From the NCBI RefSeq assembly GCF_000245335.1, contig NZ_JH600279.1, forward strand, positions 62,001 to 126,000: a stretch of 64,000 nucleotides of DNA, written 5' to 3'. Positions 7,922-55,598 of this stretch are shown here, one piece after another; position 1 is the first letter of the stretch; each line of letters starts with the position of its first letter. The position numbers and the translations under genes are program-made. A model generated the notes under the pieces. That model made no database searches and was not told the DNA's origin. It saw only the letters and a program-made list of their open reading frames with translations. The stretch comes from Bacillus mojavensis RO-H-1 = KCTC 3706. Lineage in GTDB: Bacteria > Bacillota > Bacilli > Bacillales > Bacillaceae.

Positions 7922-7925
7922 TCAG

Positions 7926-7958
7926 AAAAAGAGTTCCGTTTTAGACGGAACTCTTTTT
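7926..7958. terminator. Bidirectional terminator between maeN and yufS
   Basis: AAAAAGAGTTCCGT pairs with ACGGAACTCTTTTT around a five-base loop. The A-run on the left and T-run on the right let it serve both convergent genes; it touches the yufS stop codon. Confidence 0.9.
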
Positions 7959-8173
7959 TATTTGTTCACAATCCGCATATACTCCCTGGACCCAAACGGC
8001 CTATCCTTAGATTCCGCCTCACTCATGTTAGTTGACAGGTGGTGCTCCAATAAATACAGTTCCCAATCATCATTGTCTGCCACACGGGCACGGCCGTCAT
8101 ACTGATTCAGCATGAATGCCCCTGCAAATATCGAGCAGAATAAACCTGAGCACATAAGGACCTTTCTCTTCAC
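7958..8173 (-). CDS. yufS: Small membrane-anchored protein YufS, unknown function
   Basis: This 71-residue protein has an N-terminal basic and hydrophobic stretch (about residues 2-22), likely a signal anchor or signal peptide, followed by a charged soluble tail. There is no lipobox. It is convergent with maeN, with which it shares a terminator, and divergent from the mrp operon. I recognise it by position and length as yufS of B. subtilis; no biochemical role can be assigned from the sequence. Confidence 0.75.
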   Translation of the reverse strand: MKRKVLMCSGLFCSIFAGAFMLNQYDGRARVADNDDWELYLLEHHLSTNMSEAESKDRPFGSREYMRIVNK

Positions 8174-8340
8174 ATGATCAGCTCCTTACATACAGCTTGA
8201 TCAGGAGCGATTTTAAATATACAAATGATCTGATTTTTGTTAAACTTATTTTGAGGTCAAAAGAACTCGTAAAATTCAATCGCGGAAGGTTGAAGCATGG
8301 CGGCTTCCAAAAAAGTGCGATATAATTTGGACTGGGTCGT

Positions 8341-8368
8341 TTGACCGTATATTCTAAATATTTATACA
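8341..8368 (+). promoter_or_regulatory. Candidate sigma-A promoter of the mrp operon
   Basis: TTGACC (8341-8346) and TATACA (8363-8368) are separated by 16 bp and lie about 40 bp before the mrpA start. A second TATAAT at 8321-8326 has no good -35 partner. This assignment is a prediction from the motif only. Confidence 0.4.
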
Positions 8369-8406
8369 TAGAACAGGTTTCAACTAGAGAAAAGGAGGTC
8401 TTGTCA

Positions 8407-10812: not shown

Positions 10813-11236
10813 ACAAAAAACAAATGACCTTATTTTGCAGACCGTTACAAAGCTTGTATCCTTTATCATTTTGCTTTTCTCTTTCTATTTATTTTTATCA
10901 GGCCATAACGCGCCTGGAGGAGGATTTGTCGGCGGGCTGATCACATCCTCTTCCATCGTTTTGCTGCTGCTGGCTTATGATTTAAAAACCGTGCGTTGCA
11001 TTTTGCCGGTTAATTTCATTTACGTCGCGGGAGCCGGTCTTCTGCTCGCTGTCTTAACAGGAGTTGGCTCCTTTGTCTTCGGTGCACCCTTCTTAACCCA
11101 CACATTCGGTTACTTTCATCTGCCGATTTTAGGGAAAACGGAGCTTGCCACGGCGACGCTTTTTGATTTAGGCGTTTATCTAGTAGTCGTAGGCATTACG
11201 ATGACCATTATTCAAACGATTGGAGAGGAAGAATAA
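10805..11236 (+). CDS. mrpB: Na+/H+ antiporter subunit B, MrpB
   Basis: This 143-residue membrane protein belongs to the MnhB family (four hydrophobic segments), with the conserved GHNAPGGGFVGGL loop near residue 38. It starts at a GTG that overlaps the end of mrpA by 8 bp, with GAGGGGAAAAGC as ribosome binding site, and its stop codon overlaps the mrpC ATG. It is a required structural subunit of the Mrp complex. Confidence 0.95.
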   Translation: MNEQKTNDLILQTVTKLVSFIILLFSFYLFLSGHNAPGGGFVGGLITSSSIVLLLLAYDLKTVRCILPVNFIYVAGAGLLLAVLTGVGSFVFGAPFLTHTFGYFHLPILGKTELATATLFDLGVYLVVVGITMTIIQTIGEEE

Positions 11237-11577
11237 TGGAAATCTTAATGGCTGTTACGGCCGGTATTATATTTATGGCCGCTACCTATTTGCTGCTGTC
11301 TAAAAGCCTGCTTCGGGTCATTATCGGAACAGCGCTTTTAAGCCACGGCGTTCATTTAATGCTTTTAACTATGGGAGGATTAAAAAAAGGCGCCGCTCCG
11401 ATTTTGAGCGAGCATGCCAAGTCATTTGTCGATCCGCTTCCGCAAGCCCTGATTTTGACCGCTATTGTCATTTCTTTTGGGGTTACATCCTTCATCCTCG
11501 TCATGGCGTTTCGGGCCTATCAGGAATTGAAATCGGACAATATGGATCAAATGAGGGGAAATGATCAACATGAATAA
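11236..11577 (+). CDS. mrpC: Na+/H+ antiporter subunit C, MrpC
   Basis: This 113-residue homologue of complex I subunit NuoK/ND4L has three transmembrane helices and the family segment GTALLSHGVHLMLL near residue 32. The ATG overlaps the mrpB stop by one base, which indicates translational coupling. Its C-terminus overlaps the start of mrpD. Confidence 0.95.
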   Translation: MEILMAVTAGIIFMAATYLLLSKSLLRVIIGTALLSHGVHLMLLTMGGLKKGAAPILSEHAKSFVDPLPQALILTAIVISFGVTSFILVMAFRAYQELKSDNMDQMRGNDQHE

Positions 11578-13051
11578 TTTTGTTATATTGCCAATCCTGA
11601 TCCCGCTCTTGTCGGCCATTCTGCTGATTTTCATGAACAAACACATCATGCTCATGCGGATCTTCAGCACTGCTGCATCCGCACTCGGGATTGTGATCAG
11701 CGCTTTACTCGTACAGACCGTTTTTACAAACGGCATTCAGACACTGAATTTGGGCGGCTGGAAAGCCCCCTACGGAATTGTGCTTGTTGCAGATCAATTT
11801 GCCAGCCTGCTCGTTCTCACAACGGCAGTTATCGGCTTATTGGTTGTGCTTTATTCCTTCCGTTCTATCGGTGAGAAACGGGAAAAAGCCTTTTATTACT
11901 CCGGCGTGCAGTTTTTGCTGGCCGGGGTAAGCGGAGCGTTTTTAACAGGCGATTTATTTAATATGTACGTATTTTTCGAGCTTCTGCTGATCGCTTCTTA
12001 TATGCTGATTGTATTAGGCGGCACAAAAATTCAGCTGCGGGAATCGATTAAATACATTGTGTTTAATATCGTGTCATCAGCATTGTTTGTCATCGGCGTA
12101 GGCTTTTTATACGCTGTGACCGGCACCTTAAACATGGCGGATTTAAGTGTGAGAATCAGCGAATCCGGCCAAACTGGGCTGATTACTGTAATCGGTGTCC
12201 TGTTACTCATCGTGTTTGGTATGAAGGGCGGAATTTTCCCTCTCTACTTTTGGCTTCCCGGCTCTTATTACGCTCCTCCGGCTGCCATCTCCGCATTGTT
12301 CGGCGCATTGCTGACAAAGGTCGGATTATATGCGATCACAAGAGTGTTCACACTGATTTTCATTCACGATACAGCGTTTACCCACCAGCTGATGATATGG
12401 CTCGCGGCTCTCACTGTCATCTTCGGTGTCATCGGTTCACTTGCCTATCAGAATGTCATGAAAATCGTGATCTATAACATTATTACCGCTGTCGGCGTTA
12501 TTTTGTTCGGTGTTGCAGTTCATACGCCAGCATCCATTCAAGGTGCGATTTACTATCTGATTCACGACATGCTGATTAAAGGCGCATTATTTATGCTGGC
12601 AGGCACGCTGATTGCTTTGACTGGAACAGCAAGCCTTCAACGAATGGGCGGGCTGATCAAGCGATACCCCATTCTTGGATGGATGTTCTTCATTTCGGCT
12701 ATATCTCTTGCCGGCATCCCGCCTCTCAGCGGATTTGTAGGCAAATTTAAAATTGCGGAAGGCGGCTTCGCTGAGGGTGAATTTACGATTTCCATGCTGA
12801 TCCTGCTTTCAAGCCTGCTCGTCCTGTATTCCGTGTTGAGGATCTTTATTCATGCGTTTTGGGGCGAAGAAAAAGAAACACCAAAGCAAAATTTTAGAAC
12901 AGCTAAAGGACTTCTATATCCGGCAGCTATTTTTCTCTTCCTGTCTCTTCTCTTCGGATTGGGTACAGAATGGGTGTCACCGTACGTTGATCAAGCGGCC
13001 GAGACATTGCTGAATCCGGAAAAATATATTGAAGCTGTTTTGAAGGAGTAG
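11570..13051 (+). CDS. mrpD: Na+/H+ antiporter subunit D, MrpD
   Basis: This 493-residue antiporter-like subunit is homologous to NuoM/NuoN (ND4/ND2), with about 14 hydrophobic segments. The conserved Glu lies in YVFFELLLIASYML (about residue 137) and a key Lys in FGMKGGIFPLYFWLPG (about residue 220). I place the start at MNNFVILP (11570) as in B. subtilis; an ATG three codons earlier (11561) is also in frame and the GAGGGG upstream could serve either. Confidence 0.93.
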   Translation: MNNFVILPILIPLLSAILLIFMNKHIMLMRIFSTAASALGIVISALLVQTVFTNGIQTLNLGGWKAPYGIVLVADQFASLLVLTTAVIGLLVVLYSFRSIGEKREKAFYYSGVQFLLAGVSGAFLTGDLFNMYVFFELLLIASYMLIVLGGTKIQLRESIKYIVFNIVSSALFVIGVGFLYAVTGTLNMADLSVRISESGQTGLITVIGVLLLIVFGMKGGIFPLYFWLPGSYYAPPAAISALFGALLTKVGLYAITRVFTLIFIHDTAFTHQLMIWLAALTVIFGVIGSLAYQNVMKIVIYNIITAVGVILFGVAVHTPASIQGAIYYLIHDMLIKGALFMLAGTLIALTGTASLQRMGGLIKRYPILGWMFFISAISLAGIPPLSGFVGKFKIAEGGFAEGEFTISMLILLSSLLVLYSVLRIFIHAFWGEEKETPKQNFRTAKGLLYPAAIFLFLSLLFGLGTEWVSPYVDQAAETLLNPEKYIEAVLKE

Positions 13052-13056
13052 ATCGC

Positions 13057-13533
13057 ATGGCATTTCAAATTTTATTAAATGTGTTTCTTGCTTTTTGCTG
13101 GATGTTCCTGAGCAATGATGGAAGCGCCGCCGGATTCATTACAGGCTTTATCCTGGGAATGATCTCCCTCTTTTTCTTCCGGCGCTTCCTTGCTCATCCG
13201 TTTTATCTCTGGAAAATGTTTTCGATTATCAAACTTTTTTTGATCTTTATAAGGGAATTATACCTTGCCAACGTCAGTGTGCTGAAAACAGTCCTATCGC
13301 CAAAACTGGATATCAAACCAGGCATATTCGCATTTAAAACGGAACTGACAACGGATTGGGAAATTACCCTGCTTTCACTGCTTATTACATTAACACCGGG
13401 AACATTGGTAATGGATATTTCCGATGACCGGACCATTCTCTATATTCACGCGATGGATATTGAGGATGCGGAAAAAGCGATTTTTGATATTCGTGAGTCA
13501 TTTGAAAAAGCCATACAGGAGGTGAGCCGCTGA
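13057..13533 (+). CDS. mrpE: Na+/H+ antiporter subunit E, MrpE
   Basis: This 158-residue MnhE-family membrane protein has two or three hydrophobic N-terminal helices and a soluble C-terminal domain containing the family motif LLSLLITLTPGTLVMDIS near residues 105-122. AAGGAG precedes the ATG by 10 bases, and the stop overlaps the mrpF ATG region. It is a structural and assembly subunit of the complex. Confidence 0.95.
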   Translation: MAFQILLNVFLAFCWMFLSNDGSAAGFITGFILGMISLFFFRRFLAHPFYLWKMFSIIKLFLIFIRELYLANVSVLKTVLSPKLDIKPGIFAFKTELTTDWEITLLSLLITLTPGTLVMDISDDRTILYIHAMDIEDAEKAIFDIRESFEKAIQEVSR

Positions 13534-13817
13534 TGTTTACGTTAATCCTTCAAATCGCGCTCGGCATTATGGCGGTGTCCACCCTGTTGTATGTCATTCG
13601 CGTCATCAAAGGGCCGACTGTTCCTGACCGGGTTGTGGCTCTGGATGCAATCGGCATTAATCTGATAGCGATGACAGCGCTTGTCTCCATCCTGCTGAAT
13701 ACGAGTATTTTTCTTGATATCATATTATTGCTGGGTATTTTGTCTTTTATCGGAACCATTGCGTTTTCTAAATTCTTAGAGAAAGGGGAGATTATCGAAA
13801 ATGATCGTGATCGCTAA
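13533..13817 (+). CDS. mrpF: Na+/H+ antiporter subunit F, MrpF
   Basis: This 94-residue protein has three transmembrane helices and belongs to the MnhF/PhaF family, with the conserved [15 protein letters not shown] loop (about residue 23). Its start overlaps the mrpE stop by one base and its end overlaps mrpG by 17 bp. In B. subtilis MrpF has additionally been linked to cholate efflux. Confidence 0.95.
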
Positions 13818-14175
13818 AATAGCAGTGGCAATATTGATCCTAATGGGGGCGCTAATTTGTCTTGTGGCTTCCTTCGGGACGCTTCGCCTTCCCGATATGT
13901 ACACACGCTCTCACGCTGCTTCTAAAGGCTCAACGTTAGGCGTCAATATGATTCTGCTCGGTGTCTTCTTCTTTTTGTGGTTTATAACAGGAGAGATATC
14001 GGCAAAAATTCTGCTCGGAATTTTCTTTATCTTTATTACGTCGCCGGTCGGGGGACACTTGATCTGCCGAGCTGCGTACAACTCTGGCGTCAAGCTGGAT
14101 GAAAGAAGTGTACAGGATGACTATAACGGAATCAGAAACTTTGTGATTAAACGAAAAGAGGATTCTTACCTATAA
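13801..14175 (+). CDS. mrpG: Na+/H+ antiporter subunit G, MrpG
   Basis: This 124-residue MnhG/PhaG-family protein has three hydrophobic helices and the family motif [20 protein letters not shown] near residue 29. It is the last gene of the operon and is followed within 10 bases by a terminator. All seven genes overlap or nearly abut, as expected for a complex needing matched subunit amounts. Confidence 0.95.
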
Positions 14176-14182
14176 AAATGAG

Positions 14183-14217
14183 CAGCCGGACAGGCAGAGT
14201 TCCGGCTGTTTTTTTAT
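14183..14217. terminator. Terminator at the end of the mrp operon
   Basis: CAGCCGGA pairs with TCCGGCTG around a short loop and is followed by seven Ts. It overlaps the stop region of convergent yuxO and may work less efficiently in that direction. Confidence 0.85.
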
Positions 14218-14594
14218 TTTGTGATGACAGCCAGCGTGCATCTGGATATACAGATCAGCCTTTCTTGCTCGTCATAAATGTGAATCTGATACACAATGGT
14301 TGTTCTGCCTTTATGAACGGGCTCGGCTACGGCCTTTACCGTCCCTTCCTTGACAGATTTCAGATGATTGGCGTTGATCTCCAAACCGAAACATACTTGT
14401 GTACTAGAATCGATTAGATGCTGCGCACCCACGCTCGCCGCAGTTTCCGCAAGAGCCACTGAAGCGCCTCCATGCAAATAACCAAAGGGCTGGACTGTCC
14501 GGTGATCCACCGGCATCACTGCCACGCAGCGTTCCGCTGTGCTTTCTACAATTTCAATTCCCAGCGCGCCAAGCAATGTATGTTTTATATCCAT
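14214..14594 (-). CDS. yuxO: Hotdog-fold thioesterase YuxO
   Basis: This 126-residue PaaI/MenI-like thioesterase has the hotdog helix signature HGGASVALAETAASVGAQHL near residue 40, with the catalytic acidic residue in that helix (LAE). It probably hydrolyses acyl-CoA or aryl-CoA thioesters; the substrate cannot be read from the sequence. It lies 17 bp downstream of comA with GGGAGTG as ribosome binding site, so it is cotranscribed with the competence regulator and expression follows quorum sensing. Confidence 0.9.
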   Translation of the reverse strand: MDIKHTLLGALGIEIVESTAERCVAVMPVDHRTVQPFGYLHGGASVALAETAASVGAQHLIDSSTQVCFGLEINANHLKSVKEGTVKAVAEPVHKGRTTIVYQIHIYDEQERLICISRCTLAVITK

Positions 14595-14611
14595 AGTTTA
14601 CACTCCCTTAT

Positions 14612-15256
14612 TTAAAGCACACCGTCTGATTTTGCAATCAACACCGCTTCCGTCCGGGAACCGACATTAAGCTTGTTGAAAATCGACGTCAGGCTGTATT
14701 CAATGGACCGCTTGCTTAAATGAAGCGCATCTGCAATTTCTTGGTTGGTAAAACCTTTTTCAACTTCTTGAAGAATCAGGCATTCTCTTGGTGTGAGCAC
14801 ATCTTGTTCTTTTTGAGAGGAAGGGGCCGGCTTTGTTTTTTGCTGAGTCATCAGCTGTTTAAAGTAAGCGAAATCGACTAAAATTTCTCCGTTGAGCACG
14901 TGATATATGTATTGGGTGATCTTTTCCTTTGATTCAGTTTTGCTGATGGCGCCGTGCAGACCCGCACGAATCGCTTCCTCAAAATAATCCTCGACCTCAT
15001 AACCGGTATATACGATAATTTTACAATGAGGATTCTCTTGTAAAATCTGTTTAGAAAGCTCCATCCCATTGACATCGCCGCCTAAGTTCAAATCCATTAA
15101 AATGAGATCATATGATGAGAAATCATGCTGGCGTATGAACTGTTCGCTGGGTTCAGGACTGAGACAATCAACAGACAAATTCGAATCCGTTTCCAAAATT
15201 GTCTTGGTGCCTTCCATGACAGCCGGATGGTCATCAATCACTAGTATCTTTTTCAT
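14612..15256 (-). CDS. comA: Quorum-sensing response regulator ComA
   Basis: This 214-residue NarL/LuxR-type response regulator has a receiver domain with IDDHP near the start and Asp55 as phospho-acceptor (LILMDLNLGG), then a C-terminal LuxR HTH (LTPRECLILQEVEKGFTNQE onward, about residues 150-205). ComA-P binds TTGCGG-N4-CCGCAA boxes and activates srf, degQ and rap genes. The start at 15256 has GGGAGG five bases upstream and matches the usual N-terminus MKKILVIDDHPAV; an ORF extension to 15277 is unlikely. The sequence differs very little from the 168 protein, in contrast to ComP. Confidence 0.97.
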   Translation of the reverse strand: MKKILVIDDHPAVMEGTKTILETDSNLSVDCLSPEPSEQFIRQHDFSSYDLILMDLNLGGDVNGMELSKQILQENPHCKIIVYTGYEVEDYFEEAIRAGLHGAISKTESKEKITQYIYHVLNGEILVDFAYFKQLMTQQKTKPAPSSQKEQDVLTPRECLILQEVEKGFTNQEIADALHLSKRSIEYSLTSIFNKLNVGSRTEAVLIAKSDGVL

Positions 15257-15291
15257 GTTTTCCTCCCTTTTACTCACTCATTTCCATTTTA

Positions 15292-15318
15292 TAAAAAAGA
15301 CTTGGCTTATGCCAAGTC
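15292..15318 (-). terminator. Terminator-like hairpin between comP and comA
   Basis: On the minus strand GACTTGGC pairs with GCCAAGTC around an ATAA loop and is followed by six Ts. It lies between the comP stop and the comA start, so transcription into comA must read through it or arise from a nearby promoter. This suggests ComA and ComP levels are set separately. Confidence 0.75.
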
Positions 15319-15336
15319 GTTTCCGTTATAAAACCA

Positions 15337-17634
15337 TTACAATTCCATTTCAATATCGGCCTTAAAGCCCTTTCCTTCACTTGTTTCGATTCGGAGGCGT
15401 CCATCTAAAGCCCTGACTCGCTCCTTAATGCCAGAAAGACCCATACTCATGGAATGTTCGTTGGTTTTCTCTTGATCAAATCCCACACCATCGTCCTCAT
15501 AATGGAGAACAATTTTGTTTTGAATACTGATCAGCATAATAAGCACTTCCGTCGCCTGAGAGTGTTTCACTGCATTCGATAAAAACTCTTGAATGATCCG
15601 GTACAAATTCAGCTGCGAATCCAAATCAAGCGACGCCGTAAATCTGCCGGTATTTAAGCGAATATGAAACGGAACCCGCTCCTGCTGCTGCGCCACCAGC
15701 TTGGACAGTGCCTTCACCAGTCCCAAATCATACAAAAGCTGCGGCCGCAATTCATGACACGTCTCCCTCGTCATCGAAATCACATCAGACATCTGCTCAT
15801 TCATCTGCACGAGCTTGTCCTGCACCTCTTCACGGCATGGATCATCATCCTTCTTAAAATCAGCCAAAAACAGCTCACACTGCCGTTTTAATGATATCAA
15901 ATCCTGAAGAACTGAATCGTGGAGATCGCGGGCGAGATCAGAGCGTTGTTTTTCCTCGATGGTGTACATGAGTTTTTTGAGCCATACCGGGTTGGATTCC
16001 TGTTGTTTTATTTCTTCTAAATGACTCATCAACTCTTCGATTTTCATGACGTTCTCAATCGATACGTTTGTATAAAACGCCAAGGTTTTCAGCCAAGAAA
16101 GTTCTTCAAGTGTGAGACGGGGCGTATTCATTTTAGATAAACAAAGGATCACAAATGATTTACCACCGCGTTCACCTATCTTCATGACAAAGCCTTTATT
16201 AAATTCAACGATCTTTCCTATTTCGGATGTGACTTTTCTAAACTGTTTTTGGTAAATATCGTGGTATGGATTTGAGTTTATTTCTTCGTAAGGTTTTATA
16301 TTCCCATCCAAAGAAACTTCATAAATATAGGCTCTGCTAACAAGCAAAACCTCAAGAACAGTAGTTTTCAGTTCCCCAAAAACCTGAGATACAGAAGATG
16401 AATCTCTAATCAGTTGCGTGAACTTATATATACTGTCTTGATAATTAAACCTTTCAGAAACCCTTTTTAATCTAAATCTGAAATCAAGTACTTCTTTATA
16501 ATAAAAGACCGCCAACATTATAATATAAATTAAAAAGGTTAGTTTAACACTATAAAACTCACTCTCAGGGCTCCTAATCAACTCAATTGTTGTTATTAAA
16601 ATAATTGTTGGCGTTAAAGCTAAAAAGCCATAATATCTTAATCTGCTTAAAATAAAATCTACATTATAGATTTTATTTGTCATGAATTGATATACCAATG
16701 AGAATGGTATTAGCAGCATAAATGAAGCCGCTAAAAAAGAAGAAACATAATGTGCATTTAAAAACACGTAAGGTATCAAATATAAACACAGAAAAGGTGA
16801 AAAAGAAAAGATATTAATGATAGTGAGGACCTTAATAATATGCGCTTGTTCAGTATCTTTATTTTTAATTAAAATGATACTAAAATAAATCCCTACTATG
16901 ATAAATAAAAAGAAAAAAGCAAGTAAATTTAATTTAGGAACATAATCACGAAAGAAAAGATGTGAACGAAACATTTCACATACTACATTTATGACCGGAA
17001 TCAAATATAAAATAAAAACTTTTTTATCAAATAATTTGGTGCCTAATTCTTTAAAATATTGATAAAGAAAGAGAAGATAGTTTAGCGGCACAGATATTAA
17101 TGTTACCACCATTATAAGCCTGCTCAGCATATCTCCCTTAGCAGACCCTCCAGCGCTTATATATGCAATAGAGGCAGATAACAGAAAGATAATTAAAACT
17201 ACAGCTGAGAGGAGGTTTTTTGATTCATTTATTTTCAATATAAATAAGCAACAAAATAAACAAACGATATAAAATATTAATGGTATTAAGTAAGTAGTAA
17301 AATTTTTATCATTAAATAAGGTCATTTTCAGCTCTAGATTCTGTCCATTTCTTTCCACAATCATTGAACTTACATTTTTTAGTTTGTTCATCTTTATTTC
17401 GTTTGTGTTTATCTTTTTATTATTAATACTCTTTACGATATCTCCTTTTTCTATACCGCTGTATGATGCCATTGAAAATTCATCTACATTGGTAATTACA
17501 ATGTCACCATTTTTTGCTTTAGAAACAGTTGCCCCGACTAATAAATTATTATTGCTTATATAGGTCAAATAAATAACATATATCAAACTTAATAAAACTA
17601 ACACTACAGAAATTTTGTTATTTCTAGACTTCAT
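15337..17634 (-). CDS. comP: Pheromone-sensing histidine kinase ComP
   Basis: This 765-residue membrane kinase has an N-terminal TM helix, a PDZ-like extracellular segment (about residues 30-75, with SGIEKGDIVKSINN) and then about eight more hydrophobic helices to about residue 370. A soluble linker leads to a HisKA_3 domain with the phospho-acceptor His in RDLHDSVLQDL (about residue 571) and an HATPase domain (NAVKHSQA, DDGVGFD, GLSGIKERV). It detects ComX outside the cell and phosphorylates ComA. The start is seven bases after the comX stop. The N-terminal two thirds are strongly AT-rich and unlike 168, whereas the kinase end is conserved, the known mosaic pattern of pherotype polymorphism. 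Confidence 0.95.
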   Translation of the reverse strand: MKSRNNKISVVLVLLSLIYVIYLTYISNNNLLVGATVSKAKNGDIVITNVDEFSMASYSGIEKGDIVKSINNKKINTNEIKMNKLKNVSSMIVERNGQNLELKMTLFNDKNFTTYLIPLIFYIVCLFCCLFILKINESKNLLSAVVLIIFLLSASIAYISAGGSAKGDMLSRLIMVVTLISVPLNYLLFLYQYFKELGTKLFDKKVFILYLIPVINVVCEMFRSHLFFRDYVPKLNLLAFFFLFIIVGIYFSIILIKNKDTEQAHIIKVLTIINIFSFSPFLCLYLIPYVFLNAHYVSSFLAASFMLLIPFSLVYQFMTNKIYNVDFILSRLRYYGFLALTPTIILITTIELIRSPESEFYSVKLTFLIYIIMLAVFYYKEVLDFRFRLKRVSERFNYQDSIYKFTQLIRDSSSVSQVFGELKTTVLEVLLVSRAYIYEVSLDGNIKPYEEINSNPYHDIYQKQFRKVTSEIGKIVEFNKGFVMKIGERGGKSFVILCLSKMNTPRLTLEELSWLKTLAFYTNVSIENVMKIEELMSHLEEIKQQESNPVWLKKLMYTIEEKQRSDLARDLHDSVLQDLISLKRQCELFLADFKKDDDPCREEVQDKLVQMNEQMSDVISMTRETCHELRPQLLYDLGLVKALSKLVAQQQERVPFHIRLNTGRFTASLDLDSQLNLYRIIQEFLSNAVKHSQATEVLIMLISIQNKIVLHYEDDGVGFDQEKTNEHSMSMGLSGIKERVRALDGRLRIETSEGKGFKADIEMEL

Positions 17635-17641
17635 TTAAACC

Positions 17642-17803
17642 TCAGTACTTCCAATCAAGCATTGAATAAATTTCTAAACCTTTAAAACCATTTATTATAC
17701 ATTCAGATTGATCTTTATCAACACCCAATAAACAAGCATTACCTTCCATTACTTCCCTTAAAACATTTGGGTATTTAATTAAGTATCCTACCATTTCTTG
17801 CAT
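17642..17803 (-). CDS. comX: Competence pheromone precursor ComX, MLDWKY-type
   Basis: This 53-residue precursor starts MQEMVGYLIKYPNVL, has a middle section with two Cys, and ends YSMLDWKY. AAGGAGG lies upstream of the ATG at 17803, 13 bp after the comQ stop. ComX precursors share an MQ(D/E) start, about 55 residues and a C-terminal mature peptide with one Trp that ComQ isoprenylates; here the only Trp is third from the end. I recall MLDWKY as the mature pheromone of strain RO-H-1, clearly different from the 168 peptide ending in RQWGD. The gene is too short for standard ORF cut-offs but its position between comQ and comP is decisive. Confidence 0.95.
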   Translation of the reverse strand: MQEMVGYLIKYPNVLREVMEGNACLLGVDKDQSECIINGFKGLEIYSMLDWKY

Positions 17804-17816
17804 AATAAATCCCTCC

Positions 17817-18677
17817 TTATTTAATCATAACAGACAATAATTTTTCAGTTTTATCATCTTCTAATTTTAATTGTGACATTTCTTTTTTTATTTTCTGGAG
17901 AGATAAATGTTTCATCACCAGCAAATATTGTATAACGCCTGCTTCTGTTAACTTTTGTTTCAAAGTCTTAGTATTAATAGAAACAAATTCCTCTGGTTTT
18001 TGATATAAACTTAGTAGCTCAACTGAAGCATCATTAAATTGTTTTTTTAAGTATAAGTATGCCAATGTATTTTTTTTCTGAACAAAATCGTTATTTAAGT
18101 AAAACAAACCTTTATAATCATTATCGATCTGCGACATAATGCCAAGTTCATAAGAATAAGAAGCCACTATGGGATGGTATTTGCCGGTTGCCAGCATTAC
18201 TCCCATAACACAGGGCAATGCCGTTAGCGCTCCTGATTTATTTTTGATCATTTCAAGACAGGTTTCTTCAGTTTGCGGCGCATTCACAATATCATCATGC
18301 TGGCCTTGAATTGATTGTAACGCAAAATTCAATATCTTTTGTGAAAATTCTGGTTCATGACTAGCTTGACACATCACCTGTATACTTAGGGTGTAAAGAG
18401 CTGTAACGGCATTTAAAGCGATAGACGAGTCAATCTTCATCCATACAGCATTTCTATTATCTTTATCCTCTAAGTCATCATAAATATCGAATGAGAGTAT
18501 AAGCAATTCAATTCCGGTAGCTAGCAATTCGATTGCTTTTTTGTCCTGACCGTTAAAAGCTAAATAATGATGAAGAGCCAAATCAGCAAACTCAAAAGTA
18601 TCCTTAGACTCAATAAAATTCTGAAGATATCGTTCCAAGTCCCGATTCATTATTTTTCGGCTTACAATCTCCTTCAT
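17817..18677 (-). CDS. comQ: ComX isoprenyl transferase ComQ
   Basis: This is a polyprenyl-synthetase-fold enzyme that cleaves and attaches a geranyl or farnesyl group to the ComX tryptophan. The prenyl diphosphate-binding Asp-rich motif DDLED lies at about residue 60 of the form chosen here, and QGQHDD further on. I start at MKEIVSRKIMNRDLE (18677, 286 residues), because this aligns with the 168 start MKEIV and AAGGAG precedes it, though by only three bases. The frame stays open to an ATG at 18761 (314 residues), and a strong GGAGGGGGG lies in between, so the true start is uncertain. The gene is AT-rich and divergent from 168. Confidence 0.9.
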   Translation of the reverse strand: MKEIVSRKIMNRDLERYLQNFIESKDTFEFADLALHHYLAFNGQDKKAIELLATGIELLILSFDIYDDLEDKDNRNAVWMKIDSSIALNAVTALYTLSIQVMCQASHEPEFSQKILNFALQSIQGQHDDIVNAPQTEETCLEMIKNKSGALTALPCVMGVMLATGKYHPIVASYSYELGIMSQIDNDYKGLFYLNNDFVQKKNTLAYLYLKKQFNDASVELLSLYQKPEEFVSINTKTLKQKLTEAGVIQYLLVMKHLSLQKIKKEMSQLKLEDDKTEKLLSVMIK

Positions 18678-18833
18678 TCTCTCCTTGATCTGGACAGAAT
18701 CTAAACATATCTGCTCAATAACGACTTCCCCCCTCCCCTTCCATTTTACTAAATGGGACATTTAAAGGACAGCAGGTTTTTCGTTTTTTAACAATCATAT
18801 AATACTTTATCCATTTATTGTATGGGTAGAACG

Positions 18834-18864
18834 AAAAAAAAGACTTGTTTCCAAGTCTTTTTTA
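18834..18864 (-). terminator. Terminator after degQ
   Basis: AAAAAAGACTTG pairs with CAAGTCTTTTTT around a four-base loop and overlaps the degQ stop codon. It separates degQ from comQ, so the two genes are transcribed separately. The stem is nearly symmetric and could act in both directions. Confidence 0.85.
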
Positions 18865-19002
18865 CGAAATTTTCATTGCGTATGTGAATTTATCGAGCTG
18901 ATCAATGCTTTTGTTAATGTTTCGTAATGAATCTGTCGTTTCTTTAATATCAAGTTCGAGTCGGAATAACAATTGTTTTACTTCTTCAAGTTTCTTTTCC
19001 AT
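18862..19002 (-). CDS. degQ: Degradative enzyme regulator DegQ
   Basis: This 46-residue cytoplasmic peptide is MEKKLEEVKQLLFRLELD at its start and ends AMKIS; the whole is predicted helical. It differs from my recollection of the 168 protein by a Phe for Tyr near the end (DKFTYAMKIS). DegQ stimulates phosphotransfer from DegS to DegU, increasing secreted protease and poly-gamma-glutamate production. AAAGGAG lies eight to ten bases before the ATG. A ComA box about 130 bp upstream ties its expression to cell density. Confidence 0.95.
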   Translation of the reverse strand: MEKKLEEVKQLLFRLELDIKETTDSLRNINKSIDQLDKFTYAMKIS

Positions 19003-19081
19003 CGTTTCCACACTCCTTTTTTTGAAAGATCAATGAATTGTGTATGGTGAACGAGTCCTAGGTATTTGATCTGTTACTAAT

Positions 19082-19110
19082 AGTGTATCTGGTTTCGAGT
19101 TATTTTTCAC
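19082..19110 (-). promoter_or_regulatory. Candidate degQ promoter
   Basis: On the minus strand a -10 box TACACT (19082-19087) lies 17 bp downstream of a poor -35, GTGAAA (19105-19110), as expected for an activator-dependent promoter just below the ComA box. From memory, laboratory strain 168 carries a base change in this -10 that weakens degQ; TACACT resembles the undomesticated form. That comparison should be verified. Confidence 0.45.
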
Positions 19111-19131
19111 CGAAAAGTATACAAAAAGATC

Positions 19132-19147
19132 CTGCGTGACACCGCAA
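19132..19147 (-). promoter_or_regulatory. ComA box upstream of degQ
   Basis: The minus strand reads TTGCGG-TGTC-ACGCAG, matching the ComA operator TTGCGG-N4-CCGCAA in one full half-site and most of the second. It sits about 22 bp upstream of the proposed degQ -35 region. ComA-P activation of degQ is established in B. subtilis. Confidence 0.8.
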
Positions 19148-19362
19148 ATATCAATAGGTCTTTGTGCTTAAAGGAATCACAATGAGAACAGGACTATTTT
19201 TCTACGTGTGAAAACGGTGATTTCGGATGGAATTGAGAAAGATTCTTAATTCCTTTGATTTTATTGTATTTAACTGTTTCACCAAGTAAGACTATAGTCC
19301 CCCTTGCTGCTTTTTCAAAGTTTAATACGCGATTCTTGGCGTATCGTGACCGACAAACACCG
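19148..19362. other. Intergenic stretch between degQ control region and yuzC
   Basis: No convincing protein gene is seen. An open frame on the minus strand (19194-19379, 61 codons) has no recognisable features and is treated as chance. A strong plus-strand terminator follows at 19363 although no plus-strand gene precedes it, so a small untranslated RNA could be encoded here. Confidence 0.4.
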
Positions 19363-19397
19363 AAAAGACCGCAACGCAAAGTTGTGGCCTTTTTGCT
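19363..19397 (+). terminator. Orphan terminator upstream of yuzC
   Basis: AGACCGCAAC pairs with GTTGTGGCCT around a GCAAA loop, with one mismatch and one G-T pair, followed by CTTTTTG. It lies upstream of yuzC and downstream of no plus-strand gene. Confidence 0.7.
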
Positions 19398-19462
19398 TTG
19401 TCATATTCGGCACCTGAGTGATCTATACATATAGACATATCCCCTTTTTGCGAGGTGCTTCC

Positions 19463-19831
19463 ATGAGATATCCTTATCCTTGGCTCTACGTCTATCCGTA
19501 CGACATACGCCGTCCGCCCGCTCCTGCCGCCAATACAGCGACCTTTATCCGTTCCGCACAGGATGCCGCCGGGCTGCTTGCTGATGCTCAGCTTGTACTT
19601 AGGCGCATTGCGGGGTCACAGGAGCTTTCGCGCCGCATCATGACCGCAGCGGAGCAGTCAGATAAACAGACAGTAAAACGTCTGATCAAACAGACAGGCG
19701 TCCGGCATGATGTGGATTCGGTCTTTAATCCCGATGGCATATACATCAGCCTAATCAGCACGCAAAGCCGAATCATCGTGGCGTTGCGGTGGTCAGAAGA
19801 CCGCAATTACTTTTCGCCCATGAGCTTATGA
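19463..19831 (+). CDS. yuzC: Conserved small protein YuzC, unknown function
   Basis: This 122-residue protein has an aromatic and Pro-rich N-terminus (MRYPYPWLYVYPYDIRRPP) followed by a helical, Ala-rich and charged middle and a short beta-rich end. The start at 19463 is chosen over an in-frame start at 19418 because GAGGTG lies six bases upstream. I recognise it by position as yuzC; the N-terminus resembles Tyr/Pro-rich proteins of spores, but that is only an impression. Its last 25 bp overlap the 3' end of convergent pdeH. Confidence 0.8.
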   Translation: MRYPYPWLYVYPYDIRRPPAPAANTATFIRSAQDAAGLLADAQLVLRRIAGSQELSRRIMTAAEQSDKQTVKRLIKQTGVRHDVDSVFNPDGIYISLISTQSRIIVALRWSEDRNYFSPMSL

Positions 19832-21036
19832 CACCACTCCAAGGCTTCCAAATAACAGTCGTACGCTTCTTCCTTGTCCAATTCTTTTGCTAATTCTCCG
19901 CAAGTGTCCCAATTGTTGGTTTCGATTAACTTCACAAGTTCAAGCATTTGGTAATAGTCATTTTGATGACCTAATAACGCTTGACCTACTTCATCTATTA
20001 AAGGCAATTCTTGAATAATCTCTTCTATTTCTCTGTGCAAAAGGGTGTCTATGAGAGAAAACATCCCGATCAGCATATACGAGGCCGGCTGCGGGCGCGC
20101 TGTTTTTCTTGCCAACAGTTCACATAGTTTTGCTCTCATTAAAGAAATTTTTATGATTTCGTGTTTGCTGGAATTCCCTTTTCTGCTTAAATCCTTAAAG
20201 GATAGGATGTATATCCACCGTTTGATTTCGTTAAACCCAAGAAGCATGATAGCCTGCTTAATGCTGTCGATCTTTTGGGTTAAGCGGTTATGAGAAGAGT
20301 TTAAGAATTTTAAAATTTGATATGACAGTGATAAATCACGTTCTATGTACTCAGTTACACGCTGGATGTTAGGCTGCTCTTTGCTTAATTCGTTGAGCAA
20401 TTCATAGTAAGAATAAAAATGGGTCGACAGATCATGGCCGCTGATGATACGCGGTTCGCTGAAAAAGTAGCCTTGAAATAACTGAAAGCCATCTTGCACC
20501 GCCTGTTCATATTCTTTGCGTGTTTCTACTTTCTCAGCTAAAAAAATCAGGCCGCAACTGCTGTAGGTTTGCAAAATGTTTCGGCGTTCCATTCGGGTGG
20601 TTTTAAGAAAATCAATTTTCAATATATCAATATAGCTCATGAGCTTTTCCAATAATTTTTCATTTTTCGGGTTTATCGCGTAAAAATCATCGAGTGCCAG
20701 CGTATACCCCATTTTTTTCAGCTCTCTGCACCTTGAGACGAGAGCCGGAGTGATCGGTATATCTTCAAGGATTTCAATCACAAGCTGTTTTGGATTGAAG
20801 GAGGTGGGGAGATCCGAAAACATCAGGCTTTCAGTGAAATTGACAAAACAGCGTTTTCCTTCCGTCAGCTTCTCGATTCCGATGTTTAAAAAGCTGTTAA
20901 TCACCAAATCTGTTGTAGCCTGATCGCCGTCTGCAGCGGAATACACATTCTCTTCGCTCTCTCTATATAAAAGTTCATAAGCGACAACCTGTTCTTTTCG
21001 ATTAAATATAGGCTGTCTTGCAACAAACACCCTCAT
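19807..21036 (-). CDS. pdeH: Cyclic di-GMP phosphodiesterase PdeH (YuxH), EAL-HDOD
   Basis: This 409-residue cytoplasmic protein has an EAL-type domain (about residues 1-200) and a C-terminal HDOD domain (about residues 205-405). In place of EAL it reads YELLYRE; other catalytic signatures are present: NFTESL, VIEILED, LALDDF, the Lys in ILKIDFLK, and FQGYFFSEP. It hydrolyses c-di-GMP to pGpG and, in B. subtilis, keeps the nucleotide low so that swimming motility is maintained. The start at 21036 has AAGGAGG seven to eight bases upstream, which rules out the longer frame from 21072. It overlaps the convergent yuzC end. Confidence 0.92.
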   Translation of the reverse strand: MRVFVARQPIFNRKEQVVAYELLYRESEENVYSAADGDQATTDLVINSFLNIGIEKLTEGKRCFVNFTESLMFSDLPTSFNPKQLVIEILEDIPITPALVSRCRELKKMGYTLALDDFYAINPKNEKLLEKLMSYIDILKIDFLKTTRMERRNILQTYSSCGLIFLAEKVETRKEYEQAVQDGFQLFQGYFFSEPRIISGHDLSTHFYSYYELLNELSKEQPNIQRVTEYIERDLSLSYQILKFLNSSHNRLTQKIDSIKQAIMLLGFNEIKRWIYILSFKDLSRKGNSSKHEIIKISLMRAKLCELLARKTARPQPASYMLIGMFSLIDTLLHREIEEIIQELPLIDEVGQALLGHQNDYYQMLELVKLIETNNWDTCGELAKELDKEEAYDCYLEALEWCHKLMGEK

Positions 21037-21131
21037 TGATTTATCCTCCTTACAAAACACGCGGCTTTCCACCCTAAGTATATCAAATAATTTGACGAAA
21101 TTTGTCTAAACATGAAAAATATTATTCCCAC

Positions 21132-21169
21132 AAAAAAACTGGCCTCTTCGCGAACGAAAGGCCAGTTTG
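21132..21169 (-). terminator. Terminator after pncB
   Basis: On the minus strand AAACTGGCC pairs with GGCCAGTTT around a 15-base loop, followed by a T-run. It begins just after the pncB stop codon. Confidence 0.85.
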
Positions 21170-21171
21170 CT

Positions 21172-22641
21172 TTATTCTTCGAGCTCTTCTTCAAGTCTGC
21201 TTTTCACTTCATGGATCCGCTGCATTTTGTTGCTCCAGCAGTCCTCGCTTAAATCAACCGGGTATTCTTCAGGTTTGCTGATTCTCTTATATTCCTCCCA
21301 CAGAAGGCTGAGGTTGTCTTGTACATATTGCTGAATGTCAGAAATCTCAGGGTTCTGGTAGCATAGGATGCCTTTTTCAAAAATCAGCTCGTGAAGATCC
21401 TTCGCATAGAAATTCGTGACGAATTTGCTGATGAAGGTATGAACCGGGTGGAACATTCTCAGCCGCTTCTGGTCATTCACCTGCTCGTCATAAAGCGCAA
21501 TGTAATCACCTTCAGAATGATGATTTAACTGATTAATAATTCGGTACACTTTCTTTCTGCCAGGTGTCGTCACTTTGTCAGGGTTGGATGAAATTTTGAT
21601 CGTGTCGACCATTTCTCCGTCTTCTTCGATGGCGACGAGCTTATAAACTGCGCCGAGAGCAGGCTGGTCATAGGCTGTAATCAACTTCGTGCCGACACCC
21701 CAGACATCTATGCGCGCTCCCTGAGCCTTTAAATTCATAATGGTATGCTCATCCAAGTCACTCGATGCAATGACTTTCGCGTCTGTAAACCCTGCTTCAT
21801 CAAGCATTTTCCGGGCTTTTTTTGACAGGTACGCCAAATCGCCGCTATCCAGGCGGATGCCAATGAAGTTGATGCGGTCTCCGAATTCCTTGGCCACTTT
21901 AATCGCATTCGGCATGCCTGAACGGAGCGTATCATACGTGTCGACTAAGAAGACGCAATCCTTATGCGTTTCCGCATATTTTTTGAACGCTGTATATTCA
22001 TCGCGGTAGGCCTGCACAAGCGCATGTGCATGTGTGCCTGATACCGGGATATTAAAGCGCTTTCCGGCTCTTACATTGCTTGTCGCGCTGAAGCCGCCGA
22101 TTAAGGCTGCTCTCGCTCCCCACATAGCCGCATCCATTTCATGCGCCCGTCTTGTTCCGAATTCAAGTGCAATTTCGTCGCCAATGACGCCCTTGATGCG
22201 CGCCGCTTTTGTCGCGATTAATGTTTGGTAATTCACAATGTTAAGCAAAGCTGTTTCAATAAGCTGCGCTTCTACAAGGGGAGCTTCCACCCTCATAATC
22301 GGCTCATTGTTAAAAACCAGCTCTCCTTCTTTCATGGAATAAAGAGAACCTGTAAAAGATAAACCGCTCAAATAATCAATAAAATCTTCATGATAACCAA
22401 GCTCATCTCGTAAATAAGTCAGGTCACTATCGGTAAACTTGAAGTTTTCCAGATATTCAATGGCTTTTTCCAAGCCCGCAAAAACCGCATAGCCATTCTC
22501 AAACGGAAGCTTTCTGAAAAATAGCTCAAAAATCGCTTTCTTTTCATGAATGCCGTCTCTCCAGTAAGTTTCCGCCATATTGATTTGATAAAGGTCTGTA
22601 TGTAATGACAGGCTGTCATCTTTAAAACCGTACTCTAACAC
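21172..22641 (-). CDS. pncB: Nicotinate phosphoribosyltransferase PncB (YueK)
   Basis: This 489-residue enzyme converts nicotinate and PRPP (with ATP) to nicotinate mononucleotide in the NAD salvage pathway. NAPRTase features include the N-terminal SLHTDLYQINMAETYW, EFGTRRAHEMDAA (about residue 159), SGTHAHALVQAY with the conserved His, and IRLDSGDLAYLS (about residue 270). The start codon is GTG with GAAGGGG upstream. It lies 15 bp after pncA, so deamidation of nicotinamide and reuse of the nicotinate are encoded together. Confidence 0.95.
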   Translation of the reverse strand: MLEYGFKDDSLSLHTDLYQINMAETYWRDGIHEKKAIFELFFRKLPFENGYAVFAGLEKAIEYLENFKFTDSDLTYLRDELGYHEDFIDYLSGLSFTGSLYSMKEGELVFNNEPIMRVEAPLVEAQLIETALLNIVNYQTLIATKAARIKGVIGDEIALEFGTRRAHEMDAAMWGARAALIGGFSATSNVRAGKRFNIPVSGTHAHALVQAYRDEYTAFKKYAETHKDCVFLVDTYDTLRSGMPNAIKVAKEFGDRINFIGIRLDSGDLAYLSKKARKMLDEAGFTDAKVIASSDLDEHTIMNLKAQGARIDVWGVGTKLITAYDQPALGAVYKLVAIEEDGEMVDTIKISSNPDKVTTPGRKKVYRIINQLNHHSEGDYIALYDEQVNDQKRLRMFHPVHTFISKFVTNFYAKDLHELIFEKGILCYQNPEISDIQQYVQDNLSLLWEEYKRISKPEEYPVDLSEDCWSNKMQRIHEVKSRLEEELEE

Positions 22642-22656
22642 TGTTTTTCCCCTTCC

Positions 22657-23208
22657 TTACTCTGCCACTTGCGCTCCGATGCTGTTTGCAAAATGGGAAA
22701 GAGCCCACGTATGCCCCTCCTGATTAAAGCTGGCAACAGCCTGTTTATGCACAACAATCCGGAAACCTTTGTTGTATGCATCAACCGCTGTATGCAAGAC
22801 ACAGATATCTGTGCAGACGCCGGCTAAATGCAGCTCGTCAATCTGCCGCTCTCTGAGCTTCAGCTCTAAATCAGTACCCGCAAAAGCAGAATATCTCGTT
22901 TTTTCCATGTAATATACATTATGATCATATGCATGTTTCTGATATAGAGGCAAAAGCTTTCCATACAGGTCTTTTCCTTCCGTACCCTTGATATTATGCG
23001 GTGGAAACAGACGGGTTTCAGGGTGATATTGATCCCCTTCATTGTGAGAATCTACTGCAAATACGACGTAATCACCGTTTGTGATAAAGTGTTCTGTCAA
23101 ATTGACGATCGCCTCTTCAATCATTCTGCCGGGCTCCCCGCAGGTCAATTTTCCGTCACTCGCCACAAAATCATTTGTATAATCAATACAAATAAGTGCT
23201 TTTTTCAT
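22657..23208 (-). CDS. pncA: Nicotinamidase PncA (YueJ)
   Basis: This 183-residue isochorismatase-fold amidase hydrolyses nicotinamide to nicotinate and ammonia. The catalytic triad is visible: Asp9 (CIDYTNDF), Lys103 (EKTRYSAF) and Cys136 (GVCTDICVLHT), with metal ligands around Asp53, His55 and His71. The start at 23208 has GGGGAGG about six bases upstream; the longer frame to 23274 would add an unrelated leader. It forms a two-gene operon with pncB. Confidence 0.95.
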   Translation of the reverse strand: MKKALICIDYTNDFVASDGKLTCGEPGRMIEEAIVNLTEHFITNGDYVVFAVDSHNEGDQYHPETRLFPPHNIKGTEGKDLYGKLLPLYQKHAYDHNVYYMEKTRYSAFAGTDLELKLRERQIDELHLAGVCTDICVLHTAVDAYNKGFRIVVHKQAVASFNQEGHTWALSHFANSIGAQVAE

Positions 23209-23278
23209 AGCCGGCCTCCCCGCCATCAGTATGAGAACATTATATCTTATCTCCCGTTGTAAGGGAATTGCCATGAAT

Positions 23279-23303
23279 AAAAAGACAAACGGTCCGTTTG
23301 TCT
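23279..23303 (-). terminator. Terminator after yueI
   Basis: GACAAACGG and CCGTTTGTC form a tight hairpin followed on the minus strand by a T-run. It starts immediately after the yueI stop, and separates yueI from pncA. Confidence 0.8.
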
Positions 23304-23304
23304 C

Positions 23305-23703
23305 TTAAGATTTCAGCACCGACCGCTTAAAAATGTCGTCCTGAATATATATAGATTCATGATTTACCGCACTGTCCGCCGCAATGACAAGGCCTAAAGG
23401 CGTCTGAAACTGAAGATCAGATACGACTTTAAAAGGCACTCCATTTCGGTTCGCCATTTTTACATAAGGGGAATAAGACTGATACTGTAGCTCTCCATTG
23501 ATCAGAAGAGATATATGTTTATTACGTTTAAACGCCTGCTCCGCTTCGTCATATGGTTTGCTTCTGAGCACCTGCCCTTTTGTCAGTGCCAAAAGCACTC
23601 TTTCCCGCAATGAGCCTAAAAACAAGTGGCGCTCGTCAGGTTTTGTTTCCAGCGGCCCGTACATTCCTTGCTGTAAATAGAGATCCAGCGTTTCATCACT
23701 CAA
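23305..23703 (-). CDS. yueI: Conserved protein YueI (DUF1694)
   Basis: This 132-residue soluble protein belongs to the YueI/DUF1694 family, which has an alpha/beta fold related to ribosomal protein L7Ae-type domains but no known activity. The start is TTG with GGGAGG eight bases upstream; no suitable ATG is nearby. It is a single gene with its own terminator. Identification rests on length, family signature and position. Confidence 0.85.
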   Translation of the reverse strand: MSDETLDLYLQQGMYGPLETKPDERHLFLGSLRERVLLALTKGQVLRSKPYDEAEQAFKRNKHISLLINGELQYQSYSPYVKMANRNGVPFKVVSDLQFQTPLGLVIAADSAVNHESIYIQDDIFKRSVLKS

Positions 23704-23773
23704 AAGCTCGTCCTCCCGTCTTGTTTGTCTTCATTATCGCCTGATCCTGCGGGGGCTAAACTTTCAACGGCTG

Positions 23774-24022
23774 TTACATTTCCGTTACCCAGTGAATGAT
23801 TTTTTTTGCCAGCTCACCAGCAGGCTCTTCCTCTGTATGCCGGCGCAAAGAAGCCTCCAGCCGTTCTGGCAGCGATGATTTTTCTTCCTCGTATGAAATT
23901 ATCGTGCTCCACTCCAGCTGCGGAACGGCTACGAGCGTATGCAGCTCTTTTCTGTTTTCATGCAGATATACATCAGTGATCATTCCTGTTTGTGTGCTGA
24001 TATTTGCTTTTCTGATTTTCAT
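23774..24022 (-). CDS. yueH: Conserved protein YueH
   Basis: This 82-residue soluble protein has a beta-rich N-terminus (KIRKANISTQTGMITDVYLHEN) and an acidic, helical C-terminus. It is the founding-type member of the YueH-like family of Bacillaceae, whose function is unknown. It lies between yueG and yueI in the same orientation, but a terminator separates it from yueG. Confidence 0.8.
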   Translation of the reverse strand: MKIRKANISTQTGMITDVYLHENRKELHTLVAVPQLEWSTIISYEEEKSSLPERLEASLRRHTEEEPAGELAKKIIHWVTEM

Positions 24023-24064
24023 AACATGACCTCGCTATTTAAAAGACTATCCATATTATACAAT

Positions 24065-24097
24065 AAAAAAGCAACAGCCTCTCTAGAAAAGGCTGTT
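24065..24097 (-). terminator. Terminator after yueG
   Basis: On the minus strand AACAGCC pairs with GGCTGTT around a loop of about 11 bases, followed by GCTTTTTTATTG. It overlaps the yueG stop codon. Confidence 0.8.
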
Positions 24098-24317
24098 ACC
24101 CGTTAAACGAAACGGTATCATCAATGATATCGGCATCGTTAAAATTTGTTTTACTATATTCGTTATTGATCTTCACAAAATCCCCAAGCTGAAATGTGCC
24201 AGACCCAGCACCTGTGTGATCAACGCTTTTCGGCGCAATCGCAAACACATCTCCAAAGCTGGCTGCAGCATCACCTGATATAGACATAATATATATTGGC
24301 CCTACAATCGCAGGCAT
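24096..24317 (-). CDS. yueG: Spore germination protein GerPF-like, YueG
   Basis: This 73-residue protein belongs to the GerPA/GerPF family: [10 protein letters not shown] start, a central [10 protein letters not shown], and [12 protein letters not shown]. GerP proteins lie in the spore coat and help germinants reach their receptors; the paralogue here is isolated from the gerP operon. The ATG has GGAGGTGGGG just upstream. A mother-cell promoter (sigma K with GerE) is expected for such genes but I could not identify one with confidence. Confidence 0.85.
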
Positions 24318-24376
24318 TTCCCCACCTCCGCACTGATTTACAGCATCATATGCGGAAAGGAGCCGATGGTGCCCGC

Positions 24377-25486
24377 CTATTCAGCGGGACGTTCGTTTTC
24401 TTCAAGGCGTGACCGCTGGCGCAGCTTGATCAGCCGTACGATATTCAAGAAAAACGCCTTGACTACCGCATACACCGGCACAGCTAAAATCATGCCGAGA
24501 ATGCCGCCGAAGCTTCCGGCTCCGATCAACAGCAAAATGATGGTAAGCGGGTGCGTATTCAAACGTTTTCCGATAACGAGCGGAGAAAGCAGATTTCCGT
24601 CGAGCTGCTGAACGATCACAACCACGATGATCGCAAAAAGCGCTTTGGCCGGTGAATCCATAAAGCCGATAATGACAGCCGGCGCAGCGCCGAGAAAAGG
24701 TCCGACATATGGAATGATATTTGTAATGGCCATGACAATTCCAAGAATCAGCGCATATGGCAGCCCTGTTATCAAGTATCCGATAAAGCACGCTGTCCCT
24801 ACAAAAAGACAGATTAACAGCTGTCCCTGAAAATATGCAGCGAGTGTGTCGGATAAATCTTTAAAGATTTTTAGACCTTCTGTCCGGTAAGAAGCCGGAA
24901 GTATTTTGACTGCCAGGTGCGGAAAGCGGTGTCCATCCTTCAGCATATAAAAGAGGATAAACGGAACAGTGATAATGACAAGTGTGATATTAGTCACGAC
25001 ACCAAACACCGCGGATAAACTGGATGTAATATTTTGCGGCAGGTTTTGGAGAAAGCTTGTCAGAGACTGTTCAATTTTTGATATGGATACATAATCCTGT
25101 GTCATCATCCAGGTAAACCATTGAGAGTGAGATAAATCCTTTGTCAATGCCTGAATCTGTTTTATATATTCAGGAAGATTGTTAAACAGCCCAGTCACCT
25201 GCGATGTAATGACAGGCCCGACTGCCGCAGAAACAAAGGCAAGCAAACCGATAAATACTAAATAAATGAGCAGAATCGATAATGTCCGCGGCATTTTTTT
25301 CTCAAGCAGGCGGACGACCGGATTAAAAATAAAATACAGAATTCCTGCGATCAGCATCGGGAAAAACAATGTCGTGATAAACACGATAAACGGCTGAAAC
25401 ACAAATGAAACTTTTGTTGCTACGAAAATAATCAGCAAAACAAATAAAATTTGCAATGTCCAAAAATGGACTTTTGATTTCAACAA
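24377..25486 (-). CDS. yueF: AI-2E family membrane protein YueF
   Basis: This 369-residue protein belongs to the AI-2E transporter family (UPF0118; YdbI/PerM-like), with about seven or eight hydrophobic segments, a hydrophilic middle (about residues 80-150) and the family segment [19 protein letters not shown] near residue 260. Members export autoinducers or act as ion antiporters; the substrate here is unknown. The start is TTG at 25486 with AGGAGG seven bases upstream. It is followed by yueG, 59 bp downstream. Confidence 0.9.
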
Positions 25487-25697
25487 GCTTGTTCCTCCTA
25501 GTTTTTCTTTGTCTTACAGATAAAAGAACTTGCACCCCATTATTGTAACAAAAATGAACTGATATCAGAACTTTTAATCAGTGAATGGACTGTTGATTAT
25601 GCAGACTGTGACATACGGCAGGGACGCCGGACTGACTTATGTACATAAGGTTTCTCTGTTTTCAACGATGACGGGGCGTTTTTACAGCGCTTAACTG
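25487..25697. other. Intergenic region between yuzF and yueF
   Basis: The region contains the yueF ribosome binding site and presumably its promoter. No open frame with coding character is seen. The remaining sequence up to 25745 is the yuzF terminator. Confidence 0.5.
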
Positions 25698-49076: not shown

Positions 49077-49094
49077 CCGTCTTTTTACCTCCTT

Positions 49095-50030: not shown

Positions 50031-50055
50031 TTGAACACTCCCTTTCAAATCGTTT

Positions 50056-51675: not shown

Positions 51676-51711
51676 GCTGTTTCCCTCCTGCAATTATTTC
51701 TGATCATCTGA

Positions 51712-52908: not shown

Positions 52909-52933
52909 CTTCATAAACCTCCTTTGAGTTAAC

Positions 52934-53719: not shown

Positions 53720-53804
53720 TTCATCATTTCCTTTCTTCGCTTTTAACGCCAAAAAGGGCATGTCGCGAAAAAGACTGCTTCACCTTACTATTAACCGCAA
53801 TCTA

Positions 53805-53827
53805 TTGATAATGATTATCATTATCAA
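53805..53827. promoter_or_regulatory. Fur box upstream of dhbA
   Basis: GATAATGATTATCATTATC (53807-53825) matches the 19-base Fur consensus at every position but the last few bases of flank, and extends as an inverted repeat by TT/AA on each side. It lies about 90 bp before dhbA, covering the expected promoter. Fur with iron represses dhb in B. subtilis. Confidence 0.92.
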
Positions 53828-53889
53828 TTATAAAAATAATCATATCCAAATGTCATCCGACAGTCAAATATAATTTTTGTGACAAATAT

Positions 53890-54776: not shown

Positions 54777-54816
54777 GCAGTACGACATTCCTCTCTTTAA
54801 AACTGGCTGCATTTAT

Positions 54817-55585: not shown

Positions 55586-55598
55586 GTAAACCCTCCTT

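Follow-up and report, generated by a model that had tools for sequence, protein, structure and literature searches.

An RO-H-1-type ComX pheromone gene in an intact comQXPA locus, most likely of Bacillus mojavensis RO-H-1 itself, with signs of a mosaic history

We analyzed a 64,000-nucleotide stretch of Bacillus DNA (the window) that carries the pheromone gene comX on the reverse strand at 17642..17803, between comQ and comP. The gene starts with ATG behind a strong ribosome-binding site (AAGGAGGGATTTATT-ATG), encodes a 53-aa precursor (MQEMVGYLIKYPNVLREVMEGNACLLGVDKDQSECIINGFKGLEIYSMLDWKY) and ends 7 bases before the start of comP. As stated in a preliminary description of this DNA, the precursor ends in SMLDWKY and its only Trp is third from the C-terminus; this Trp is residue 51 of 53. 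The last six codons with the stop codon (17642..17662, reverse strand) encode the presumed mature peptide with a putative cleavage site; we take the mature RO-H-1 pheromone to be the six residues MLDWKY, the ends of which are reportedly given by Ansaldi et al. 2002. The string MLDWKY did not turn up in our literature search, neither at word starts nor anywhere in the text.

The degQ-comQXPA locus around the gene is intact, with comP and comA adjacent, on the same strand and uninterrupted. comQ (17817..18677, reverse strand) encodes a 286-aa isoprenyl transferase that matches the Pfam polyprenyl synthetase family; its likely start is 18677, behind AAGGAGAG, and the longest open reading frame begins at 18761. 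ComQ carries DDLED at residue 67 and NDYKG at residue 186. A published account states that ComQ needs an aspartate-rich DDxxD plus NDxxx (or GDxxx) as the second motif, and, for six strains, puts the modified Trp of ComX at the third or fourth position counted back from the C-terminus (PMC5331326); the ComQ and the ComX of the window agree with the respective statements. comP (15337..17634, reverse strand) encodes a 765-aa receptor histidine kinase with HisKA_3 and HATPase_c domains (Pfam), while PDZ matches near its N-terminus stayed under the Pfam cut-offs, and comA (14612..15256, reverse strand) encodes a 214-aa response regulator with Response_reg and GerE domains (Pfam). Upstream of comQ lies degQ (18862..19002, reverse strand, 46 aa). 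ComK is present in the genome, and tRNA and Rfam scans of the whole window gave no match.

Going by the family and by published work on RO-H-1, ComQ would isoprenylate Trp51 of the ComX precursor, and we assume that the modification in the RO-H-1 pherotype is a geranyl group. A short peptide from the C-terminus (presumably MLDWKY) would be cut free and exported, and would then bind, with the specificity of its pherotype, the membrane sensor at the N-terminus of the ComP encoded in the locus. The activated receptor would phosphorylate ComA, which would in turn drive the surfactin and competence genes.

A search of the 44 genomes of the genus matched ComX at E <= 0.001 in 36 (the window's own genome, G000, counted, in which there was one match) and at more than 80% identity in three others, namely B. 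inaquosorum KCTC 13429 (G011, 96%), G005 (94%) and B. atrophaeus NRS 213 (G003, 85%). The B. inaquosorum locus has a comQ 96.2% identical to that of the window at the DNA level, but it differs in two of the last six ComX residues (MMDWHY), and its ComP residues 1-429 are 88.5% identical at the DNA level. The G005 ComX ends in the same six residues as that of the window and its ComP residues 144-286 are 97.4% identical at the DNA level, whereas its comX has a GTG start and two leader changes and the surrounding 300-base windows are 81-96% identical. A more distant, 168-type locus was that of G035, which we take to be B. subtilis strain 168. It has the gene order and families of the window and a ComA 99% identical, but its ComX (35% over 40 aa), ComQ (43%) and ComP (57%) are those of another pherotype, and its ComX ends in ADPITRQWGD, bearing out the earlier remark that the window precursor differs from the 168 type ending RQWGD. 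The ComP of G003 can be aligned over its full length in a single reading frame; its longest open frame is 398 aa, so the receptor is apparently interrupted by a stop codon. A protein search with ComX returned 3 proteins from 3 candidates and no further named strain of the type. One 36-aa database protein starts like the window ComX and then diverges, and it seems to come from a strain whose comX carries a frameshift.

We compared the 19-kb com region with that of 16 other genomes. Identity to the sister genome G009 was 93-100% outside a polymorphic block (16000..18650) and 54-64% inside it, in nine 300-base windows with starts from 16000 to 18400. In seven windows with starts from 16600 to 18400, G005 was 93-99% and G011 88-98% identical to the window, against 81-96% elsewhere. 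The comQXP alignment was unbroken in four of the 16 loci (G005, G011, G003 and G025) and broken in the other 12. Among the 13 loci with ComX ends compared, MLDWKY was found in G000 and in G005, a species more distant than the sister genome, MMDWHY in G011, NVDWKY in G003, GGDWKY in G025, the ADPITRQWGD end in G035 and WEKG in G014. Longer precursors with a WPPIE stretch, presumably natto/NAF4-like, were found in G032, G033, G036 and G038, and GIFWEQ ended the ComX of the sister G009 and of the more distant G039. The RO-E-2 peptide is quoted as LSKKCKGIFWEQ (PMC5331326), and exactly these residues are contained in the G009 ComX, which is of the RO-E-2 type. Four classes (RO-H-1-like, RO-E-2, 168-like and WPPIE) take in 12 of the 13 ComX loci.

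The trees of the locus conflict with that of the backbone. The backbone tree (12 loci) joined G000 with G009 (SH-aLRT 100) and rejected a G000+G005+G011 group (p-AU 3e-51), while G000+G009 was rejected by both the ComQ tree (12 rows, p-AU 1e-4) and the ComP tree (11 rows, p-AU 9e-62). The exact trio G000+G005+G011 reached a support of only 88 in the ComQ tree, and long branches were flagged. These trees were built without G014, G031, G015, G002 and G040, and G003 was omitted from the ComP tree because of its 398-aa longest open frame. ComX, ComQ and ComP of the window form a group separate from those of the 168, RO-E-2 and natto/NAF4-like types, and the receptor is of the type that matches the signal; the label RO-H-1 comes from the probable identity of the strain. 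The window locus shows the known trans-species polymorphism of comQXP. Sharing between species is already known, since B. subtilis 168 and B. mojavensis RO-C-2 are described as having a common pherotype (PMC5573675).

The genome of the window fits the published draft of B. mojavensis RO-H-1. It comprises 3,957,021 bases in 29 contigs, and B. mojavensis AFSI00000000 is listed at 3.96 Mb (PMC10237388). The flank at 18652-25642 was 97.0% identical to G009, and the stretch 8016-16710 was 94.4% identical, the lower value arising because this stretch runs into the divergent block; the same flanks were 86.5% and 87.2% identical to the 168-like G035. For B. mojavensis RO-H-1 = KCTC 3706, the published ANI is about 96.0% with B. 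halotolerans and about 87.1% with 168 (PMC10237388), and the comparison is rough because our identities come from 19 kb and the published values from whole genomes. A lantibiotic cluster was found in contig C18 (stretch 44000-62000, at about 7188-15186 within that stretch). It has two precursor frames, listed at 65 and 73 aa, with the last 64 residues identical, followed by LanM (1029 aa), a LanT-like frame (711 aa), a LanF-like ABC-type ATPase (319 aa) and a LanE-like frame (246 aa); the roles of the last three were assigned from sequence starts and position, without a profile search. In the lantibiotic cluster described for the RO-H-1 draft, two identical precursors accompany a single LanM together with LanT, LanF and LanE (PMC3951391), and the gene order in our genome is the published one. 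The relative position of LanM in the assembly is 0.756, against about 0.77 of the genes for the published locus tag, a rough agreement. The LanM domain (PF13575) was found in two of the 10 genomes searched, G000 and G009; no duplicated precursor was found in the G009 stretch analyzed (14,490 bases, up to the contig end).

We therefore consider it very probable that the window comX is the comX of the B. mojavensis RO-H-1 comQXPA locus, the assembly most likely being that of RO-H-1, and we weighed this against three other readings. That the 53-aa frame is a chance small ORF is virtually inconceivable. The Pfam ComX family (PF05952) passed only marginally on residues 1-42, scoring 26.2 bits and so exceeding the curated cut-off of 25 bits by 1.2, and NCBIfam profiles did not match the 53-aa precursor, but the frame is flanked by comQ and comP, has a strong ribosome-binding site and has relatives at 85-96% identity in three other species. 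Gene context had already ruled out a chance small ORF at 17642-17803. The length of 53 aa and Trp51 near the C-terminus also fit the short precursors of the family, for which a range of 52-73 aa is given (PMC4008528). The earlier statement that the family call is not in doubt stands: despite the marginal Pfam score and the silence of NCBIfam, locus context and near-identical relatives settle it.

It is quite unlikely that the window represents an RO-H-1-like allele in another strain or a sister species (B. halotolerans, for example), a reading under which the pherotype call would still be right. Alleles do cross species (MLDWKY in G005, MMDWHY in B. inaquosorum), and neither the ComQ tree nor the ComP tree agrees with the backbone; however, the genome of 3,957,021 bases and the two-precursor lantibiotic cluster fit the RO-H-1 draft, and G009 is without the duplicated precursor in the stretch analyzed, although LanM alone does not separate these two genomes. 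Slightly less improbable, but still unlikely, is a distinct sub-pherotype akin to the MMDWHY alleles, with receptor changes that would limit communication with them to a partial one. In its favour, G000 and G005 are set off from B. inaquosorum in the comX core and over residues 1-319 of ComP. Against it, RO-H-1 itself defines the pherotype if the genome is that of RO-H-1, and RO-H-1 and RO-B-2 are treated in print as one pherotype (PMC4408185, PMC8857193) although their precursors are listed at 53 aa (AAF82177.1, B. mojavensis RO-H-1) and 54 aa (PMC5385187). In the features compared (the 53-aa precursor length, species-level identity and the genome features), we found no difference between the window and the B. 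mojavensis RO-H-1 ComQXPA system, apparently that of the same strain. The RO-H-1 pherotype assigned in the preliminary description is supported, apparently because the DNA comes from RO-H-1. ComX is the ordinary signal by which wild Bacillus cells sense their density, and an RO-H-1-type ComX in an RO-H-1 genome is expected and already known, the pherotype being named for the same strain and studied for more than 20 years.

The preliminary description had further proposed that the strain would not signal with 168-type cells and that its cross-talk partners were in doubt. The first proposal agrees with the report that comQXP of B. mojavensis RO-H-1, when put into B. subtilis, gave no cross-activation with the resident system (PMC4771773), but it is too weak, because the same source reports that the RO-H-1 ComX cross-inhibits ComP168. 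Toward 168-type cells the RO-H-1 signal is therefore reported to be an inhibitor rather than silent. For RO-H-1, activation of an RO-H-1 tester but not of a 168 tester has been published (PMC4408185, PMC4771773). The cross-talk partners are partly in print: RO-H-1 and RO-B-2 serve as one class. A 168 tester strain, BD2962, is described as carrying comQXP of RO-H-1 (PMC5799266), and the pair RO-H-1 and NAF-4 has been modelled (PMC6461992).

We analyzed the relation of G000, G005 and G011 along the locus by counting the positions at which one of the three stands apart. In ComP residues 1-319, 90 sites joined G000 with G005, 19 joined G000 with G011 and 12 joined G005 with G011. The corresponding counts were 15, 36 and 19 in the comX leader and comQ, and 17, 20 and 72 in comA and the ComP kinase part, the last of which fits the backbone expectation. 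The strongest change of pattern, a candidate recombination breakpoint, lay inside comX at 17720..17726. It is the best split of the G000+G005 and G000+G011 patterns over 16678-18674 (166 sites), and none of 2000 permutations was as strong; a Fisher test on the two halves gave p 1.4e-11, with the halves picked after the data had been viewed.

Shared-derived sites were also counted. In ComP 1-319 there were 28 for G000+G005, 6 for G000+G011 and 3 for G005+G011 with G003 as outgroup, and 30, 2 and 6 with G025. We rejected the view that the mosaic arose solely from a higher rate of change in a single lineage, because the 28 and 30 sites of G000+G005 take the ComP pattern beyond rate alone. Faster change in G011 does contribute to the ComP signal, as the changes of G011 alone in ComP 1-319 (45 with outgroup G003, 38 with G025) exceed the shared-derived sites of G000+G005. 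In the comX leader and comQ the counts for the same three pairs were low (6, 11 and 4 with G003; 6, 6 and 5 with G025), leaving the comQ side weakly resolved, and the five shared-derived-type sites of the comX core were too few for a test of their own. These site patterns, from three sequences, suggest that the ComX core and the ComP sensor half have a common history, different from the one seen in the comX leader and comQ, and that the breakpoint is within comX.

We put forward only tentatively, and as somewhat less probable than its opposite, the idea that the ComX core and ComP residues of about 1-319 form a specificity cassette that crosses Bacillus species independently of the comX leader and of comQ, the exchange point falling inside the 53-codon comX. 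If this were true, the comX leader would be a neutral junction, and lineages would swap dialect and retain their own modifying enzyme. ComP residues common to G000 and G005 and different in G011 number 40, of which 34 lie within 1-319; these positions, which part both MLDWKY receptors from the MMDWHY receptor, offer a short list for specificity. Pherotypes are an established model of how bacterial signalling dialects persist, and the window adds a reference point, with MLDWKY in two species, a near-identical end in B. inaquosorum and another dialect in the sister G009. At 16200-16500 (comP, about residues 380-480), G000 resembles neither G005 nor G011, and in the 150 bases from 16200 it is 76% identical to G005 and 73% to G011; this is the edge of the polymorphic block and perhaps another exchange point.
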